Shown here: positions 5,101 through 52,443 of the stretch, piece by piece
Layout of the letters: each line of letters begins with the position of its first letter
How positions within the stretch are numbered: the stretch's first letter is position 1
Assembly (NCBI RefSeq): GCF_018128965.1
Contig: NZ_JAAEDH010000015.1
Span: 1-64,000 of the forward strand
Length of the DNA: 64,000 nucleotides
Direction of reading: 5' to 3'
DNA from: Plastoroseomonas arctica
GTDB taxonomy: Bacteria; Pseudomonadota; Alphaproteobacteria; Acetobacterales; Acetobacteraceae
Made by a program: the position numbers and the translations under genes
The notes under the pieces: generated by a model
Databases searched by the model: none
Seen by the model: the letters and a program-made list of their open reading frames with translations, nothing else
What the model was told of the DNA's origin: nothing

Positions 5101-6024
5101 ATGCGGCGGCGGCGTGTTCTGGGTGGATTGGGGATGGCGACGCTCGCCGGCACGGCGGGCGCGCAGCCGGCGCCGCGCCCGCTGGCGGTCTATCCCAATG
5201 GCACCTTCCTCGAAAACCTGATCCTGCGGAATGACGGCTCGGTGCTGTTCACCAGCTACTTCGCGCGGCGCATCGAATCGCACTTGCCGGGGATCGGCGC
5301 GGCGGCCTTCGCGGAGGTCGATGGGCACCCGGTGAGCCTCGCCGCGCTACCGCAGGGGGGGTACGCACTCGCGATCCATGGTGCGCCCTTCACCGGTGGT
5401 CCCGCGGCGTTGCGCGGTGGCTGCGCGGTGCTGATCCTCGACCCGGCGGGGCGCGAGGAGCGGCGCATCGCGCTGCCCGAGGCGATCTTCCTCAATGGCT
5501 GCCTGCTGCGCGCCGATGGCTCGCTGCTGGTGGTGGATGCGGCGCTGGGCCGCATCTGGGCGGTCGAGCTCGGCGGCGGCACGGTGCGCGTGTGGCTCGA
5601 GGATGCGGCTTTCGCGCCTGATCCGGCGCGGCCCGGACTGCCCGGCGTGAACGGCATCAAGCCATCGCTCGATGGCGCGTCGCTGCTGGTCTCCAACTCG
5701 GCGAGCCAATCCCTGATGAGCGTGCCACTCGGACGCGCCGGTGCGCCGGGCGGTCCGCCCGTGCCGGTCGCGCGCTTCCCGGGCATCGATGATTTCTGGG
5801 TCATGCCCGATGGGGTGATCTGGGCCGCGACGCATGGCCCCGCGATTGCGCGGCTGCGCCCGGGTGCCGCGACGCCGGAGGTGTTTCCCGCGCTCGGCCT
5901 CGAGGGCAACACTGCGCTCATCCCCGCGCCGGATGGCAGCGGGCTCTATGTGCTGGGCACCGGCGGGCTCGCCGAGGGTGGGCGCGGGGAGGCGATGCTG
6001 GCGCTGTTCCCCTGGCCTGCATGA
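5101..6024 (+). CDS. Secreted SMP-30/gluconolactonase-like beta-propeller protein
   Basis: This 307-residue protein begins with a twin-arginine-like leader (MRRRRVLGG, then a hydrophobic run ending AGAQ), so Tat export is likely. The rest has repeated blades of the type 'F.NG..L..DGSLLVVDAA.GRIW' and 'PGVNGIKPSLDGASLLVSNS', as in SMP-30, strictosidine-synthase-like and gluconolactonase propellers. These usually bind a divalent metal and hydrolyse lactones, but the substrate cannot be read here. The ATG at 5101 has AGGAGG five bases upstream. It is divergent from rnd and precedes aspS. Confidence 0.75.
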   Translation: MRRRRVLGGLGMATLAGTAGAQPAPRPLAVYPNGTFLENLILRNDGSVLFTSYFARRIESHLPGIGAAAFAEVDGHPVSLAALPQGGYALAIHGAPFTGGPAALRGGCAVLILDPAGREERRIALPEAIFLNGCLLRADGSLLVVDAALGRIWAVELGGGTVRVWLEDAAFAPDPARPGLPGVNGIKPSLDGASLLVSNSASQSLMSVPLGRAGAPGGPPVPVARFPGIDDFWVMPDGVIWAATHGPAIARLRPGAATPEVFPALGLEGNTALIPAPDGSGLYVLGTGGLAEGGRGEAMLALFPWPA

Positions 6025-10255: not shown

Positions 10256-10843
10256 TCAGGTCGTCGGCGCGTCGGAGGCGGGCGCCTCGGGCGGCGCGGC
10301 ATCGACCATCGGCGCCGGCGTCTTCTTCACGCGCGGCTTGCGCGGCGCGGTCGTCTTCTTCGGAGCGGGCGGAGCCGCCTTCTTGGCTGCGGTCTTCTTC
10401 GGCGCAGTCTTCTTGGCGGCGGGCTTGGCAGCCGTCGCACGCTTGGCCGGAGCCTTCTTGGCAGCGGCCTTCTTCGGCGCGGCCTTCTTGGCTGCCGGCT
10501 TCTTGGCGGCGGCCTTCTTCGGCGCAGCCTTCTTGGCGGTGGTCTTCTTGGCGGCAGCCTTCTTCGGCGCAACCTTCTTGGCGGTGGTCTTCTTCGCGGC
10601 GGTCTTCTTCGGCGCGGCCTTCTTGGCGGCCGGCTTCTTCACGGCGGCCTTCTTGGCAGCCTTCTTCGGCGCGGCCTTCTTGGCGGCGGGCTTCTTCGCA
10701 GCCGCCTTCTTGGCAGCGGGCTTCTTCGCCGCCGGCTTCTTGGCCGCCGGCTTCTTCGCGGTCTTCTTCGCCGCGGCCATCGCCATGGCCTGAGCGCGCG
10801 GGGCGCTGTCCTCGGCGTCGTTGGTCTCGATGATGTCAGTCAT
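10256..10843 (-). CDS. Histone H1-like AAKK-repeat DNA-binding protein
   Basis: After a short acidic N terminus ([14 protein letters not shown]), nearly all of this 195-residue protein is a tandem array of KKPAAKK/KKAAPKK-type units, about five residues each, matching the Ala/Lys/Pro tail of eukaryotic histone H1 and bacterial H1-like proteins (HctB, BpH1, AlgP family). It is intrinsically disordered, strongly basic and likely compacts DNA. The tail ends with a PRKPRVKKT stretch and an acidic/Ala cap. Repeat number is expected to vary between strains by slippage, and the DNA is correspondingly repetitive. The start at MTDII has GGAGAT upstream; a longer frame to 11005 has no support. Confidence 0.87.
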
Positions 10844-30985: not shown

Positions 30986-32875
30986 ATGAACAAGACATTC
31001 GCAGCCCTCGCGGCGGCATCCTGGCTGGCCCTCGCGCCGCAAGCCGGCGCACAGGTCACCCGGTTCGAGCTCACCGGCCGGCCCGAGTCGGCCTTCGGAG
31101 GCCAGGAATTCGGCGCCGCCGGTCGCTATGAACGGCTCGCCGGCCGCGCGACCATCGCGCTCGACCCCGCCGACCCCCGCAACGCCGTCATCGCTGACAT
31201 CGCGGCCGCACCGCGCAACGCCCAGGGCCGCGTCGAGGCCAGCGCCGATGTGGTGATCCTCCGCCCCGTCGAGGCCGCGCGCGGCAACGGCACCATGTTG
31301 CTGGAAGTGCCCAATCGCGGCCGCATGCTCGCGCTGCCGCTTTTCAACGAAAGCCCCACCGCCGCGCAAGGGCGCGAACCGGGCAATGGCTTCCTGTTCC
31401 GACAGGGTTTTACGCTCGTCTGGGTCGGCTGGCAGGCGGATTTCGCGCCCGCCGCCGGTGAACTCGCGATCCGTCTCCCGATGCTCGAAGGTGTCACTGG
31501 CCCGATGCGGGAGGAGGTGGTCTTCGACCACTTGCGCAACCCCGCGCCCATTCCGCTTGCCTTCCCGATCGCCGATAACGCCTCCGCGCGCATCACCGTG
31601 CGCGCTCGCTGGGACCTGCCGCGTGAGACGCCCGCGGACCTCGCTGTCGCCGTCGCGAACCCGCGCGAAATCACGGTCACCCGGCCCGCCGGCTACGACG
31701 CCGGCGCGGTCTATGAGCTGACCTACACGGCGCGTGACCCGGTCGTCTCCGGCGTGGGCTTCGCCGCGGTGCGCGACGTGGCCGCCTTCCTCCGCCGTGA
31801 AGCTGGCGACGCCAATCCCCTCGCGGGCCGCACGCGACGCACGATGGCCTTCGGCGTCTCCCAGTCCGGCCGCTTCCTGCGCGACTTCCTCTATCTCGGC
31901 TTCAACGAGGACACGGCGGGGCAGCCGGTGTTCGACGGGCTGATGCCCCACGTCGCCGGCACCCGGCGCATGTTCATGAACTCGCGCTTCGCGCGGCCCG
32001 ACAAGGCGCCCCGCAGCCTGCAGGACCCCGCCTGGTCCGCCGACGCCTTCCCCTTCACCTATGCCGAAACGCAAAACCCCTTCACCGAGGCGCGCGACGG
32101 CCTGTTGCGCCGCTGCACCGCGTCCAACACCTGCCCGCGCGTGATGCAAACGGACACCGAGTATGAATGGTGGGGTGCCCGCGCCTCGCTGCTGGTCATG
32201 GACCCGGGCGGCGGGGCGATTGGTCTGCCGGATTTCGTGCGCGCCTACATGATCGCAGGCACGCCGCATTTTTCCCAACCCGGCGCCACCGTGGCAGCGA
32301 ACCCGGTCTGTGCCCTTCCCACCAACCCCAACCACGCCGGCGGCCCGATGCGCGCGCTGCTGAGCCACCTGGACGCCTGGGTGCATGACCGCCGCGTGCC
32401 GCCGCCCAGCCAGGTGCCGACGCTGGCCGCCGGCACGCTGGTGGAAGCCGCGCGCGCCCTGCCGGCCCCGGTCCCTGGGCTGAACTACACCGGCATCCAC
32501 GTGCCCGCCGCCCAATCCGACCACACCGTCATCCCACCCCGCGAGCTCGGACGCTTCCCCGTCTTCGTGCCGAGGATGGATGGCGACGGCGTGGCGGTCG
32601 CCGGCATCCGCATGCCGATCCTGGAAGCGCCGCTTGAAAGCCGCACCGCCTGGAACCCGCGCGCCGAAGGCTACGGGCCGGGCGTTCTGTGCCCGCTGAT
32701 GGGCGGCGTGCTGCCCCTGGCCGCGACGCGCGCGGCGCGCGAGGCCGCTCGCGATCCGCGGTTGTCGCTGGAGGAACGGCCGGCGCGTGGCCCCGCGCTG
32801 CGGGCGGCGGCGGAGCGGCTCGCGGCTGCGGGGTTCCTGCTTCCGGAAGATGTGGAGCGGTTTCCGAGGGAGTGA
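30986..32875 (+). CDS. Large secreted alpha/beta hydrolase (Abhydrolase_10-like)
   Basis: This 629-residue protein has a signal peptide (cut near AGAQ). A beta-rich N-terminal part precedes the nucleophile elbow 'AFGVSQSGRFLRDFLYLGFN', with Ser in G-x-S-x-S-G near residue 288. 'PHVAGTRRMFMNSRF' and the C-terminal 'QSDHTVIPPRELGRFPVFVPR' fit the uncharacterised alpha/beta hydrolase-domain family found in soil proteobacteria. Four Cys are present in the mature chain (RRCTASNTCPRV, others later). The substrate is unknown; an ester or lactone is likely. The first copy of the dispersed palindrome begins seven bases after the stop. Confidence 0.82.
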   Translation: MNKTFAALAAASWLALAPQAGAQVTRFELTGRPESAFGGQEFGAAGRYERLAGRATIALDPADPRNAVIADIAAAPRNAQGRVEASADVVILRPVEAARGNGTMLLEVPNRGRMLALPLFNESPTAAQGREPGNGFLFRQGFTLVWVGWQADFAPAAGELAIRLPMLEGVTGPMREEVVFDHLRNPAPIPLAFPIADNASARITVRARWDLPRETPADLAVAVANPREITVTRPAGYDAGAVYELTYTARDPVVSGVGFAAVRDVAAFLRREAGDANPLAGRTRRTMAFGVSQSGRFLRDFLYLGFNEDTAGQPVFDGLMPHVAGTRRMFMNSRFARPDKAPRSLQDPAWSADAFPFTYAETQNPFTEARDGLLRRCTASNTCPRVMQTDTEYEWWGARASLLVMDPGGGAIGLPDFVRAYMIAGTPHFSQPGATVAANPVCALPTNPNHAGGPMRALLSHLDAWVHDRRVPPPSQVPTLAAGTLVEAARALPAPVPGLNYTGIHVPAAQSDHTVIPPRELGRFPVFVPRMDGDGVAVAGIRMPILEAPLESRTAWNPRAEGYGPGVLCPLMGGVLPLAATRAAREAARDPRLSLEERPARGPALRAAAERLAAAGFLLPEDVERFPRE

Positions 32876-32881
32876 AAAAGG

Positions 32882-32903
32882 CAGGGGAAATGAATTTCCC
32901 CTG
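32882..32903. repeat. Dispersed palindrome, copy 1 (left of a pair)
   Basis: The palindrome has arms CAGGGGAAAT and ATTTCCCCTG around GA. Reading rightward it is followed by the family's T-rich tail (TCCTTTTATTTTTGG) and a GTGGTGC element. It pairs with the inverted copy 2, and the VOC gene lies between them. It begins seven bases past the hydrolase stop and may also terminate that transcript. Confidence 0.85.
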
Positions 32904-32952
32904 ACCACATCCTTTTATTTTTGGCTAGTGGTGCCTGTTGTGGAGTTAGCCC

Positions 32953-33384
32953 TTGCTCGACCATGTGTTCTTGACGGTCAGCGATTTAAATCGATCGATA
33001 GCCTTCTACACGGCGGCTTTGGCACCGCTCGGGATCACGACGCGCGTTGACTATAATGGCAAGGATGGGCCGCCGGGGCATCCGGACCTGAAGGGGTTCG
33101 GCTGCAACGGGCGCATCTTCTTTTGGCTGCGGGCGGGAGTGGCCGATGCGCGGTCTGCGCATGTCGGTTTCGTCGCGAACTCTACGGCGGAGGTCGATGC
33201 GGCCTATGCCGGAGCGATGGCGGCGGGTGCTGTCGACAATGGCGCGTCGGGCATCCGGGCCTACTACGACCCTCGTTATTACGCTGCCAGCGTCTTCGAC
33301 CCAGACGGCTACAGCCTCGAATTCGTCTATAAAAGCTGGCAGCACGCAACCGCAGCGACGGTTGTCCCCCGTCGCCAAAAGTAA
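32953..33384 (+). CDS. VOC-family (glyoxalase/bleomycin-resistance fold) protein
   Basis: This 143-residue protein begins with TTG; GGAG is seven bases upstream. It has 'LDHVFLTVSDLNRSIAFYTA' with the first His metal ligand and ends 'YYAASVFDPDGYSLEFVYKS' with the second Glu ligand, a complete VOC betaalphabetabetabeta pair. It resembles small glyoxalase-like enzymes or resistance proteins of unknown substrate. The first 60 bases are richer in A/T (GATTTAAATCGATCGATAG) than neighbouring genes. It lies exactly between two inverted copies of the dispersed palindrome, which hints at arrival as a unit. Confidence 0.78.
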   Translation: MLDHVFLTVSDLNRSIAFYTAALAPLGITTRVDYNGKDGPPGHPDLKGFGCNGRIFFWLRAGVADARSAHVGFVANSTAEVDAAYAGAMAAGAVDNGASGIRAYYDPRYYAASVFDPDGYSLEFVYKSWQHATAATVVPRRQK

Positions 33385-33395
33385 AAGAATGGGGT

Positions 33396-33425
33396 CCGGG
33401 GAAATTCCTTTCCCCGGCCTTTTTT
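33396..33425 (+). terminator. Dispersed palindrome copy 2, functioning as VOC terminator
   Basis: Arms CCGGGGAAA and TTTCCCCGG surround TTCC (33396-33417), followed by CCTTTTTT: a well-formed intrinsic terminator 11 bases after the VOC stop. It is the inverted partner of copy 1. The upstream side carries the family motif AAAAGTAAAAGAATGGGG. The convergent homospermidine synthase gene ends at 33427. Confidence 0.82.
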
Positions 33426-33426
33426 A

Positions 33427-34890
33427 TTACCGCACCCGGAAATTTTCAAACTGCCACGGATCCGTGCGATCCACATTCTCCGGAAACAGGTGTTCCCGGT
33501 TCTCCAGCGGCGTCCAGTCCGAGTATTCCCCGACCACATCCCCAAGGTAGGGCGCGCAGATCTCCAGGATCCGCTCATGGTCGAGCGCGTCGGCCTCGAC
33601 CGGCCCGCGATTGGGGTTCTCGATCGCCCAGATGACACCGGCGAGCACGGCAGCCGTGACCTGCAGCGAGGTGGCGTTGTTGTGCGGTGCGACGCGGCGG
33701 GCTTCCTCGATGGTCAGGCGCGAGCCGTACCAGTAAGCACCCTTCGCGTGGCCCATGAGCAGCACGCCGAGCTCATCCATGCCGGTGGTGATCTCGTCGA
33801 CCATCAGGCGCTTGTTGGTCTGCATCACCCAGTTCTTGCCGGCGAGTTCGTGGATGGAGAGCACGGCGCCGTCGCAGGGGTGGTAGGCGTAGTGGCAGGT
33901 GGGGCGGTAGGTGGCCGCGCCGGTTGCGTCGTTCACGGTGTAATAATCGGCGATGGAGATGGCCTCGTTGTGGGTGACGAGGAAGCCGTGGAAGGGGCCT
34001 TCGAGCGGGGTCCAGGTGCGCACGCGGGTGCCGGCGCCGGGGCGGAGGAGGTAGATGGCGGCGTCGCAGCCGAATTCGTGGCGGCGGCCGTCCTCGGGGA
34101 GGGTCTTTTCGTGGGTGCCCCAGCCGAGTTCGGCGGGCTGGTTGCCCTCGCCGACGAAGCCGTCGATGGACCAGGTGTTGACGAATTCGCCGGGGCGCTT
34201 GGGGATGGTGCCGGCCTGGGTGTCGCGCTCGGCGATGTGGATGACCTTTATCCCGAGGGTCTGCGCCAGCGCGGCCCAGCCGGCGCGGTCGACGGGTGCG
34301 GTGGCGGGCACACCGGTCTCGGCCGCGATGTTGAGCAGCGCCTGCTTCACGAAGTGGGAGACCAGGCCGGGGTTCGCACCATGGGTGAGGACCGCCGTGG
34401 GGCCGTCCTTGGGCAAAGCGAGGACGCTCTCACGCAGGGCGTAGTTCGAGCGTTCGGAGGGGGTGAGCGAGGGGTCGGTGTAGAGGCCGCCCCAAGGCTC
34501 GACAACGGTGTCGAGATAGAGCGCGCCAAGTTCGCGGCACAGCGTGATGAGCGCGACGGAGGAGACGTCGACCGAGACGTTGAGCAGAAAGTCGCCCGCG
34601 CCCAGCAGCGGGGTGAGCAGGTCGGCGTAGTTCTCGCGCGTGGCGGCGGTCTCGATAAAGGTGATGCCGTATTCGGCTGCGACCTCATGGCCGCGGGGCT
34701 CGGCGGTGACGATGGTGATGCGCTCGCGCGGCATGGCGACGTGGCGGAGGAGTAGGGGGAGGACGCCCTGGCCGATGGAGCCGAAGCCGAGGATGACCAG
34801 GCGGCCTTCAAAGCGCGCATGGATGGCGTCGATTGGGGCCAGCGTCGCTTCGGTCACGGTGGTGGCGGGGGGGACGGCTTCGAGGGACAT
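33427..34890 (-). CDS. hss: Homospermidine synthase
   Basis: This 487-residue NAD-dependent enzyme joins two putrescines (or putrescine and spermidine) to give sym-homospermidine, the main triamine of many alphaproteobacteria. A Rossmann start (RLVILGFGSIGQGVLPLLLR) precedes 'PWGGLYTDP', 'THGANPGLVSHFVKQALLNI' and 'HNEAISIADYYTV', with aspartate and glutamate residues of the active-site tunnel. AGGAG precedes the chosen ATG; a start at 34923 would add 11 residues. The decarboxylase gene lies 85 bases upstream, so substrate supply and use are linked. Confidence 0.94.
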   Translation of the reverse strand: MSLEAVPPATTVTEATLAPIDAIHARFEGRLVILGFGSIGQGVLPLLLRHVAMPRERITIVTAEPRGHEVAAEYGITFIETAATRENYADLLTPLLGAGDFLLNVSVDVSSVALITLCRELGALYLDTVVEPWGGLYTDPSLTPSERSNYALRESVLALPKDGPTAVLTHGANPGLVSHFVKQALLNIAAETGVPATAPVDRAGWAALAQTLGIKVIHIAERDTQAGTIPKRPGEFVNTWSIDGFVGEGNQPAELGWGTHEKTLPEDGRRHEFGCDAAIYLLRPGAGTRVRTWTPLEGPFHGFLVTHNEAISIADYYTVNDATGAATYRPTCHYAYHPCDGAVLSIHELAGKNWVMQTNKRLMVDEITTGMDELGVLLMGHAKGAYWYGSRLTIEEARRVAPHNNATSLQVTAAVLAGVIWAIENPNRGPVEADALDHERILEICAPYLGDVVGEYSDWTPLENREHLFPENVDRTDPWQFENFRVR

Positions 34891-36169: not shown

Positions 36170-36379
36170 GGGCACTTCCCTGTCAGAGCGCCGACCCACA
36201 TGGCCGGCTCCACCGATAAGGACGCGTCCCGTCGTTGCCTTCCGGCACGTGCGATAGCGCCAGTGATGGGGGATATGGTCGCTTGTTCCGGAAAATGCAA
36301 GGGCATTTGCGGGGTTGGCCTGGGTTTTTCCGGGAGTCTGCTGGGGAGGCGGGGGATTTCGGTGGAATTTAAGCAAGGT

Positions 36380-36399
36380 CGGGGGAAAGAATTCCCCCG
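36380..36399. repeat. Dispersed palindrome, copy 3 (left of a pair)
   Basis: Arms CGGGGGAA and TTCCCCCG surround AGAA, slightly shortened relative to the family. It is followed by ATCTTTTATTTTCATCTATTGGTGC, the family tail. It sits in the 319-base space (36170-36488) between the decarboxylase and agmatinase genes; the rest of that space holds nothing else I recognise. Confidence 0.82.
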
Positions 36400-36477
36400 C
36401 GCCCCGATCTTTTATTTTCATCTATTGGTGCCGGTTGCCCGGCCAGCACCAAAATTCAAAAGTTAAAGAATGGGGGT

Positions 36478-36501
36478 CTGGGGGAAATTCATTTCCCCCA
36501 G
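36478..36501. repeat. Dispersed palindrome, copy 4, overlapping the agmatinase 3' end
   Basis: Arms CTGGGGGAAAT and ATTTCCCCCAG surround TC, perfect 11-base arms. The stop codon of the agmatinase gene (36489-36491) lies in its centre and the last codons (Trp-Gly-Lys) are read from its arm. Together with copy 3 it forms an inverted pair whose inner parts contain TTGGTGC / GCACCAA. Confidence 0.88.
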
Positions 36502-37391
36502 TCTTTGCCAACCATGCAGATATATTCCCACGCCAAAGTCGCGCCCGCCAGCGCCGTGATCTCCGACACGTCATAGGCGGGGGCGACTTCCACAAGGTCC
36601 ATCCCGCGCCAATCCAGGCCCGCCATCCCCCGGATGAGCGCTTGCGCCTGCCAGGAGGCGAGGCCGCCGATTTCCGGGGTGCCGGTGCCCGGCGCGAAGG
36701 CCGGGTCGAGCGCGTCGATGTCGAAGGAGAGATAGGCGGGGCCGGTGCCGAGCACGGCGCGGGCGCGGGCGATGGTCGCCGCGATGCCCTCCGCGTGGAC
36801 GTCCTGTGCGGAGAGCACGGTGACACCGCGCGCCGGCGCCCAGGCGGCGACCTCGGTCTGGACGGTGGCGCGGATACCGATCTGGATGGTGCGGTGGGGG
36901 TCGATCAGGCCCTCGTTGATGGCGTGGAAGAAGACGGAGCCGTGGCCGTATTCCTGGCCGAAGCTTTCCGACCAGGTGTCGCAATGGGCGTCGACGTGGA
37001 GCAGGGCCAGGGATTGGCCGACGCGACGGGCGAGGGCGCGGAGCAGTGGGAGGGTGACGCCGTGTTCCCCGCCCAGGGCGAGCAGGTGAGGGATGAGCGC
37101 GGCCTGCTGCTCGATGAGCGCGAGGCTGGCCTGGATGTCGCCGAGCGCGATGGCGAATTCGCCGAGATCGGCGAGCGAGAGGGTCGCGGGGTCGACGCCG
37201 CTGACCGGGTGGGCGCCGTCGACCAGCATGCGCGAGGCGGCGCGGATGGCCTGCGGACCGGCGCGGGTGCCGGCGCGGTTGGTGGTGCCGATGTCGAGCG
37301 GGATCCCGGCGACCGAAAGGGCGGCCGGGGTGGTGGTGAAGGGCAGGCCGAGGAAGCCGGGGGGTGTGGCGAAGGTCGGGACGCCGACCAT
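36489..37391 (-). CDS. speB: Agmatinase (ureohydrolase family)
   Basis: This 300-residue binuclear Mn enzyme hydrolyses agmatine to putrescine and urea. All metal ligands are visible: His110 in 'LGGEHG', Asp134, His136 and Asp138 in 'HVDAHCDT', and Asp224 and Asp226 in 'SFDIDALDPAFAPGTGTPE'. The C terminus is read into a copy of the dispersed palindrome, which provides the stop. The start is five bases from the DUF3141 stop, so both are co-transcribed. With the decarboxylase and homospermidine synthase downstream on the same strand this makes a polyamine block. Confidence 0.94.
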   Translation of the reverse strand: MVGVPTFATPPGFLGLPFTTTPAALSVAGIPLDIGTTNRAGTRAGPQAIRAASRMLVDGAHPVSGVDPATLSLADLGEFAIALGDIQASLALIEQQAALIPHLLALGGEHGVTLPLLRALARRVGQSLALLHVDAHCDTWSESFGQEYGHGSVFFHAINEGLIDPHRTIQIGIRATVQTEVAAWAPARGVTVLSAQDVHAEGIAATIARARAVLGTGPAYLSFDIDALDPAFAPGTGTPEIGGLASWQAQALIRGMAGLDWRGMDLVEVAPAYDVSEITALAGATLAWEYICMVGKDWGK

Positions 37392-46120: not shown

Positions 46121-46130
46121 GGCGACAGCA

Positions 46131-46152
46131 TGGGGGAAATGAATTTCCCCCA
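46131..46152. repeat. Dispersed palindrome, copy 5
   Basis: TGGGGGAAAT and ATTTCCCCCA around GA; left end of the 46123-46300 pair, 10 bases from the pdeM start. The first in-frame ATG of a longer pdeM frame lies within it, but the ATG at 46120 is the better start. Confidence 0.87.
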
Positions 46153-46270
46153 AACCCCCATTCTTTTGTTTTTATCTATTGGTGCTTGCGGCACGGCCAT
46201 ATCGCGTGCCGCGAACTCGGTGCGACCTACCAACCCGAACCAATCATTCAAAAATAAAAGAAAGGGGGTT

Positions 46271-46292
46271 TGGGGGAAATTCATTTCCCCCA
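46271..46292. repeat. Dispersed palindrome, copy 6
   Basis: TGGGGGAAAT and ATTTCCCCCA around TC; right end of the pair, 22 bases beyond the helicase stop on the minus strand. It could act as that gene's transcript end. Confidence 0.87.
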
Positions 46293-46313
46293 TGCTGTCG
46301 TCCAAACCCACTC

Positions 46314-52308: not shown

Positions 52309-52359
52309 CCGGCGCTGCGTTCGCGGCTGGTATCGGTGATAAACATAAAAGATGGGGGT

Positions 52360-52383
52360 CTGGGGGAAATTCATTTCCCCCAG
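52360..52383. repeat. Dispersed palindrome, copy 7 (solitary)
   Basis: CTGGGGGAAAT and ATTTCCCCCAG around TC, identical to copy 4 in its arms. Upstream are ATAAACATAAAAGATGGGGGT, matching the family's tail in the opposite orientation. No partner within 500 bases, so this is a single end. Confidence 0.88.
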
Positions 52384-52443
52384 TCTTGTTGACCCGGTGT
52401 GGTCGGCGTGGTGCGCTCGCGCGAAATCTTGGAAGGATCGTCC

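Follow-up and report, generated by a model that had tools for sequence, protein, structure and literature searches.

A foreign-looking VOC gene has probably replaced the interior of a terminator-like intergenic repeat in Plastoroseomonas arctica

The junction between a hydrolase gene and an hss-like gene in Plastoroseomonas arctica raises the question of how a single gene came to lie between two inverted palindromes. In the window, which here denotes the whole 64,000-nucleotide stretch of contig NZ_JAAEDH010000015.1 that was analysed, the palindrome GGGGAAATGAATTTCCCC occupies positions 32884-32901 and its mirror copy GGGGAAATTCCTTTCCCC positions 33398-33415, and these are among six such palindrome sites in 64 kb, compared to none in 100 dinucleotide shuffles. 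The original prediction had portrayed the two copies as facing each other across a lone VOC gene with a TTG start and an A/T-richer 5' end, and had read this gene as a possible passenger between mobile ends. The palindrome scan, the open reading frames and a Pfam match (PF00903, E 7e-13) bore out this layout, identifying one intact VOC/glyoxalase ORF between the facing palindromes, and GC content at its 5' end is 0.555-0.56 (32800-33099) against about 0.70 in the surrounding sequence. The TTG at 32953 has a GGAG 7 nt upstream and lines up with codon 1 of the homologues in a protein alignment; the stop codon lies at 33382-33384. The palindromes are embedded in longer arms, at 32875-32945 and 33363-33425, with the outer side of arm 1 beginning at the hydrolase stop codon, the outer side of arm 2 adjoining the hss stop codon and the VOC stop codon falling within arm 2. 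The features concerned are the following:

30986-32875, plus strand: alpha/beta hydrolase (Abhydrolase_10; PF20091, 1e-42), left of the repeat and convergent with hss
32875-32945, plus strand: arm 1, palindrome 32884-32901 followed by CCACATCCTTTTATTTTTGGCTAGTGGTGCC (nhmmer profile, 6e-16; orthologous sister arm L076:5488-5561)
32953-33384, plus strand: VOC/glyoxalase-family gene, 143 aa, TTG start (PF00903, 7e-13)
33346-33384, plus strand: 12-residue VOC tail ATAATVVPRRQK and stop (protein alignment, sequence)
33363-33425, minus strand: arm 2, palindrome 33398-33415 (nhmmer, 4e-16; orthologous arms L076:5267-5336 and L077:7464-7531)
33427-34890, minus strand: hss-like gene of the saccharopine/homospermidine dehydrogenase family, to the right of the repeat (PF03435/PF16653)
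36371-36506, no strand assigned: full repeat of the shortest class (136 bp, no central module) at the arginase-family/decarboxylase junction (profile; fold -64.7 kcal/mol, z -5.4)
46124-46300, no strand assigned: full repeat of the one-module class (177 bp; profile)
52337-52389, minus strand: single arm with palindrome 52363-52380 (palindrome scan, sister comparison)

The palindromes belong to a genus-restricted repeat, present as about 200 palindromes in 4.4 Mb (196 copies at up to 2 mismatches in the 4.44-Mb draft). The pattern GGGGAAANNNNTTTCCCC has 134 exact copies in the window genome and 102 and 4 in two congeners; in one further genus the count reaches 42, and the remaining genomes among the 398 of the family have few copies or none. 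Among the 145 copies that were located, 28 of 29 neighbours less than 1.5 kb apart are in facing orientation. An arm of about 70 nt is described by the profile AAAAAGRCY-GGGGAAADGAATTTCCCC-RGACCCCATTCTTTTATTTTTGGCTATTGGTGC, and searches with it, which covered genome stretches around repeats, returned 177 arms forming 56 facing pairs and leaving 65 arms unpaired; some single arms are shared in position by both species. Pairs fall into discrete length classes (about 136, 174, 190, 225, 250 and 284 bp) that recur with a period near 38 bp, and 54 of the 56 pairs fall at 129-284 bp, in lengths that fit 136 + n x 38 bp. The pair bracketing VOC, at 551 bp, is one of the two gene-sized outliers. Internal self-matches of L170 and L319, at 37 and 75 nt, directly reveal a repeat of 37-38 nt within some longer copies, and the 21 shortest copies align over their full length as one long mirror-image sequence. 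The architecture of the repeat is hence an arm, zero to seven modules of about 38 bp and a mirror arm. As the original prediction had noted, the other two pairs in the window (36371-36506 and 46124-46300) have nothing but short stretches of non-coding DNA inside them.

Some copies (L176, L189, L213 and L244) carry an extra small palindrome, such as CGCGACGCACTGCGTCGCG, between the two C-runs of the left arm. A different repeat (TTTGATCGCGTGATTCAG...CATCACGCTC) is found in Plastoroseomonas hellenica, the nearest named relative of the window genome among the genomes compared, at L077:4320-4375 and L277:1970-2150, where it follows the arginase-family and YcgN genes, places at which the window genome has its own repeats. 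Separately, a 15-nt tandem repeat runs for about 25 copies in register at 10345-10837 of the window.

The palindromes examined are intergenic and lie chiefly after stop codons. A G-run was found 2-16 nt past the stop codon at 70 of the 75 outer pair ends scored, most commonly at a distance of 8. Junctions with pairs, as classified with a simple gene caller written for the purpose, comprise 20 convergent, 33 tandem and 1 divergent, a depletion of divergent junctions relative to the 14 of 66 in the window (Fisher p 0.0015). Read from inside to outside, an arm presents a hairpin followed immediately by a T-run, which is the layout of an intrinsic terminator. In the reading direction of VOC, the terminator-like scan places such a hairpin in arm 2 directly after the gene, as a G+C-rich CCGGGGAAATTCCTTTCCCCGG-CCTTTTTT in which CCTTTTTT is the T-run, and the RNA fold of this arm has an energy of -22.3 kcal/mol (z -3.0). 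Double changes were observed in only 2 of 35 pairs, which leaves the structure unproved by covariation. From this layout, the arms probably work as transcription terminators, and arm 2 is now the supplier of the VOC stop codon and of a putative terminator, while also standing at the 3' end of hss.

Several described families share part of this organization. BOX elements of Streptococcus pneumoniae are built from two end modules with central modules in varying number between them, and the sections of PMC3049150 that deal with them report over-representation between convergent genes and a stop codon supplied to the neighbouring gene in 36 cases. The repeat described here has the two constant end modules and variable central modules of a BOX-type intergenic repeat, and likewise occurs between convergent genes and sometimes provides stop codons (compare PMC3049150, same sections). 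It differs in that it belongs to another genus, with no shared family found, its ends mirror each other, each end has a strong G4AAA...TTTC4 hairpin and the central module measures about 38 bp; the replacement of modules by a foreign gene is not described for BOX in those sections of PMC3049150. SPRITE, also from S. pneumoniae, is portrayed in the corresponding part of PMC3049150 as dispersed, terminator-like, enriched between convergent genes and forming one long duplex with a uridine-rich tract. The present repeat resembles it in being dispersed, terminator-like and partial to convergent junctions, but is modular and mirror-imaged instead of a single long duplex.

The REP/BIME palindromic units of enterobacteria occur in hundreds of intergenic copies, some at 15 nt or less from a stop codon (PMC12306157), and the repeat found here is similarly a short palindrome with many intergenic copies near stop codons. 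Nevertheless, its arms, read outward, run into T-runs like those of intrinsic terminators, and no Y1 (RAYT-type) transposase was found in the window genome: PF01797 had no match in this 99%-complete genome, whereas 5 of 14 control genomes did match. Membership in REP/RAYT was rejected on this account. Because no Rfam family reached the gathering score in the stretch searched (window 32000-53000) and no paper on such repeats in Roseomonas or Acetobacteraceae was found, the repeat seems to be undescribed so far.

The gene between the arms appears to have a different history from its surroundings, as judged by its composition and relatives. Its product scores 49 bits against PF00903 (cut-off 20.6), and H4, H70 and E123 are invariant across the seven proteins aligned. 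It is 72-74% identical to plasmid-borne relatives from Rahnella, Variovorax and Novosphingobium, which are 131-134 aa long and encoded within operons; in the annotated records of Rahnella and Variovorax the VOC gene overlaps a saccharopine-dehydrogenase-like gene, and in that of Rahnella an SDR gene lies upstream. A 72% relative in another genus (G005) has apparently similar neighbours, as read by eye from the sequence. The window gene has the second lowest codon score of 172 genes of 300-700 nt and the lowest GC3 in the window (0.72 against a median of 0.89), and neither congener yielded an orthologue (best E 1e-13 and 1e-15). VOC looks foreign and recently acquired because of this unusual codon usage, its relatives in plasmid operons and the lack of an orthologue in the congeners. 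Homologues terminate at WQH or up to a few residues beyond it, and the window protein continues with ATAATVVPRRQK, a tail absent from all the aligned homologues that extends through the spacer into arm 2, where the ORF is ended by the TAA of AAAAGTAAAAG. The native stop codon of VOC thus appears to have been lost on joining to the arm.

Whether the arms arrived with the gene can be judged from the same junction in relatives. The decisive comparison involves a single sister genome that has the hydrolase/hss junction. In this MAG, whose completeness is about 90%, the hydrolase occupies the same place with 89% amino acid identity and the hss-like gene is 88% identical (84-87% in P. hellenica). 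In the sister, stretch L076 reads hss, arm (5267-5336), a filler of about 150 bp, mirror arm (5488-5561) and hydrolase, and contains no VOC. The arms of the two genomes align directly past the hydrolase and hss stop codons, and homology ends within the arms. In P. hellenica the arm on the hss side stands alone, followed by other sequence and without the hydrolase. The occurrence of both arms at this junction in a sister lacking VOC indicates that the arms predate the difference in VOC presence.

This bears on the idea of a mobile unit whose inverted ends brought VOC into the junction as cargo, with a transposase acting in trans. MITEs and mobile insertion cassettes, exemplified by the MITE with qnrS2 on Aeromonas pAC3 (PMC5444012), resemble this arrangement in that they end in inverted terminal repeats, lack a transposase and have a gene lying between these ends or next to them. 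The repeat itself shares with MITEs terminal inverted repeats, the lack of a transposase ORF and discrete presence or absence: two sister repeats (L305:1857-2049 and L316:3567-3765) have empty counterparts in the window genome, with the break directly after the stop codon, and therefore entire repeats are gained or lost as units. A relative with a cleanly closed junction from which the entire block is missing, as expected from the original prediction, or one lacking gene and both ends jointly, as in a mobile insertion cassette, was not observed; the sister has instead both arms of this very copy at the same site, around unrelated filler. Nor did the analysis find a clear duplication of the target at either empty site, a second VOC of this kind in the window genome or a VOC relative between palindromes elsewhere, and the failure to find a Y1 transposase also speaks against a mobile unit. 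Relatives with VOC at the hydrolase/hss locus but lacking both palindromes, which would contradict the cargo idea, were not found either.

A second bracketed gene offers some support to the cargo idea. In the sister, a facing pair of 601 bp (L286:1636-2236, on G001:C27) surrounds a lipoprotein-like ORF of 153 aa with no Pfam match, and the ORF is missing, arms included, from the orthologous junction of the window genome (L349), where a different small gene, GFA-like by eye, is found with no repeat. A search for this ORF in the window genome, run without a positive control, did not find it. As a test of cargo, the case is not decisive, since the orthologous junction holds another gene and no repeat. 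The passenger reading hence survives only in part: the ends behave as discrete units and VOC looks recently acquired, but the movement of VOC together with its ends is not supported, given a sister that has the arms without the gene. Insertion of VOC and ends as a block was consequently rejected as the leading reading, and we regard it as improbable.

The explanation that we consider the best supported, and moderately probable, is that, in this lineage, a VOC gene of foreign origin took the place of the interior of a terminator-like repeat already resident at the junction. The two palindromes would be both ends of one resident copy of the modular intergenic repeat, which lay between hydrolase and hss, two convergent genes, before the species and its sister split. 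VOC would have been taken alone from an SDR-VOC-dehydrogenase operon and would have displaced most of the repeat interior, entering by illegitimate recombination inside the repeat or by an interior swap through the repeated arms. The direction of change, we infer, was gain of VOC and not loss in the sister.

Loss by the sister is the main rival. Under it, an ancestral VOC lay between hydrolase and hss, a single arm or a decayed repeat belonged to each 3' end separately, and the bracketing is a coincidence in a dense repeat family. Single arms are indeed common and stable, as the 65 unpaired ones and those shared in place by both species attest, and by a crude estimate chance alone would bracket about 3 genes per genome with repeat sites. 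The YcgN-like cysteine-cluster gene (PF03692) at L256:1793-2438 (G000:C25), which lies between two facing arms, exemplifies a gene between remnants of separate repeats. Its bracket is probably a two-repeat remnant, because the arm downstream of YcgN is in the sister part of a complete, separate repeat. For this reason, and because P. hellenica has YcgN too, with no arms in the stretch examined, the gene was rejected as a second cargo gene. On the other hand, both sister arms at the VOC locus nearly reach the inner end of the profile (positions 76 and 78 of 80), which fits one repeat better than remnants joined by deletion. The sister filler has no trace of VOC (p = 0.41 against the VOC interior). 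Together with the foreign codon usage of VOC and the lack of an orthologue in either congener, these observations make an ancestral VOC rather unlikely, although it retains more weight than any other alternative. A point against the preferred explanation is that the filler matches the interiors of other repeats weakly (z 2.0, with ordinary copies at -0.6 to 11.8), so that it may not be an ordinary repeat interior.

Across the family, repeat sites are largely conserved between the two genomes, though not invariably. Among the sister arms with a matching stretch of the window genome, 52 of 64 lie at the same junction in the same orientation, a proportion biased upward by the choice of window-genome stretches for having repeats, and pair lengths differ at shared sites (244 vs 174, 399 vs 284 and 295 vs 551). 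Such variation in length, along with about 200 similar palindromes, would suit a variant in which VOC was first enclosed near another repeat and homologous recombination between the repeated arms then transferred that interior to this copy. The arms are merely some 70 nt long, however, and no donor VOC between arms was found in the window genome or the two congeners searched; this variant, inseparable from the main explanation on present data, is very unlikely as a separate account. Finally, the many repeats and a 51-contig draft might have led an assembler to join VOC at a repeat, but synteny with the sister holds on either side, the reading frame runs unbroken into the arm and the assembly has no other place for VOC, which makes an artefact exceedingly improbable.

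Replacement of the repeat interior by VOC thus remains the preferred reading. A broader and distinctly speculative proposal, to which we assign a low probability, is that these repeats act as landing pads, whose mirrored arms, with ready stop codons and terminators, would let single foreign genes be swapped in and out of 3' junctions with their neighbours unharmed, and that the genus exchanges small accessory genes in this way. With this family, a BOX-like modular repeat associated with stop codons, and probably with termination, is exemplified outside the streptococci, and the VOC copy offers a case, located through the sister genome, of a foreign gene seated between two terminator-like arms. 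If more cases exist, they would bear on how a single gene separated from its operon comes to be expressed and tolerated by another genome.
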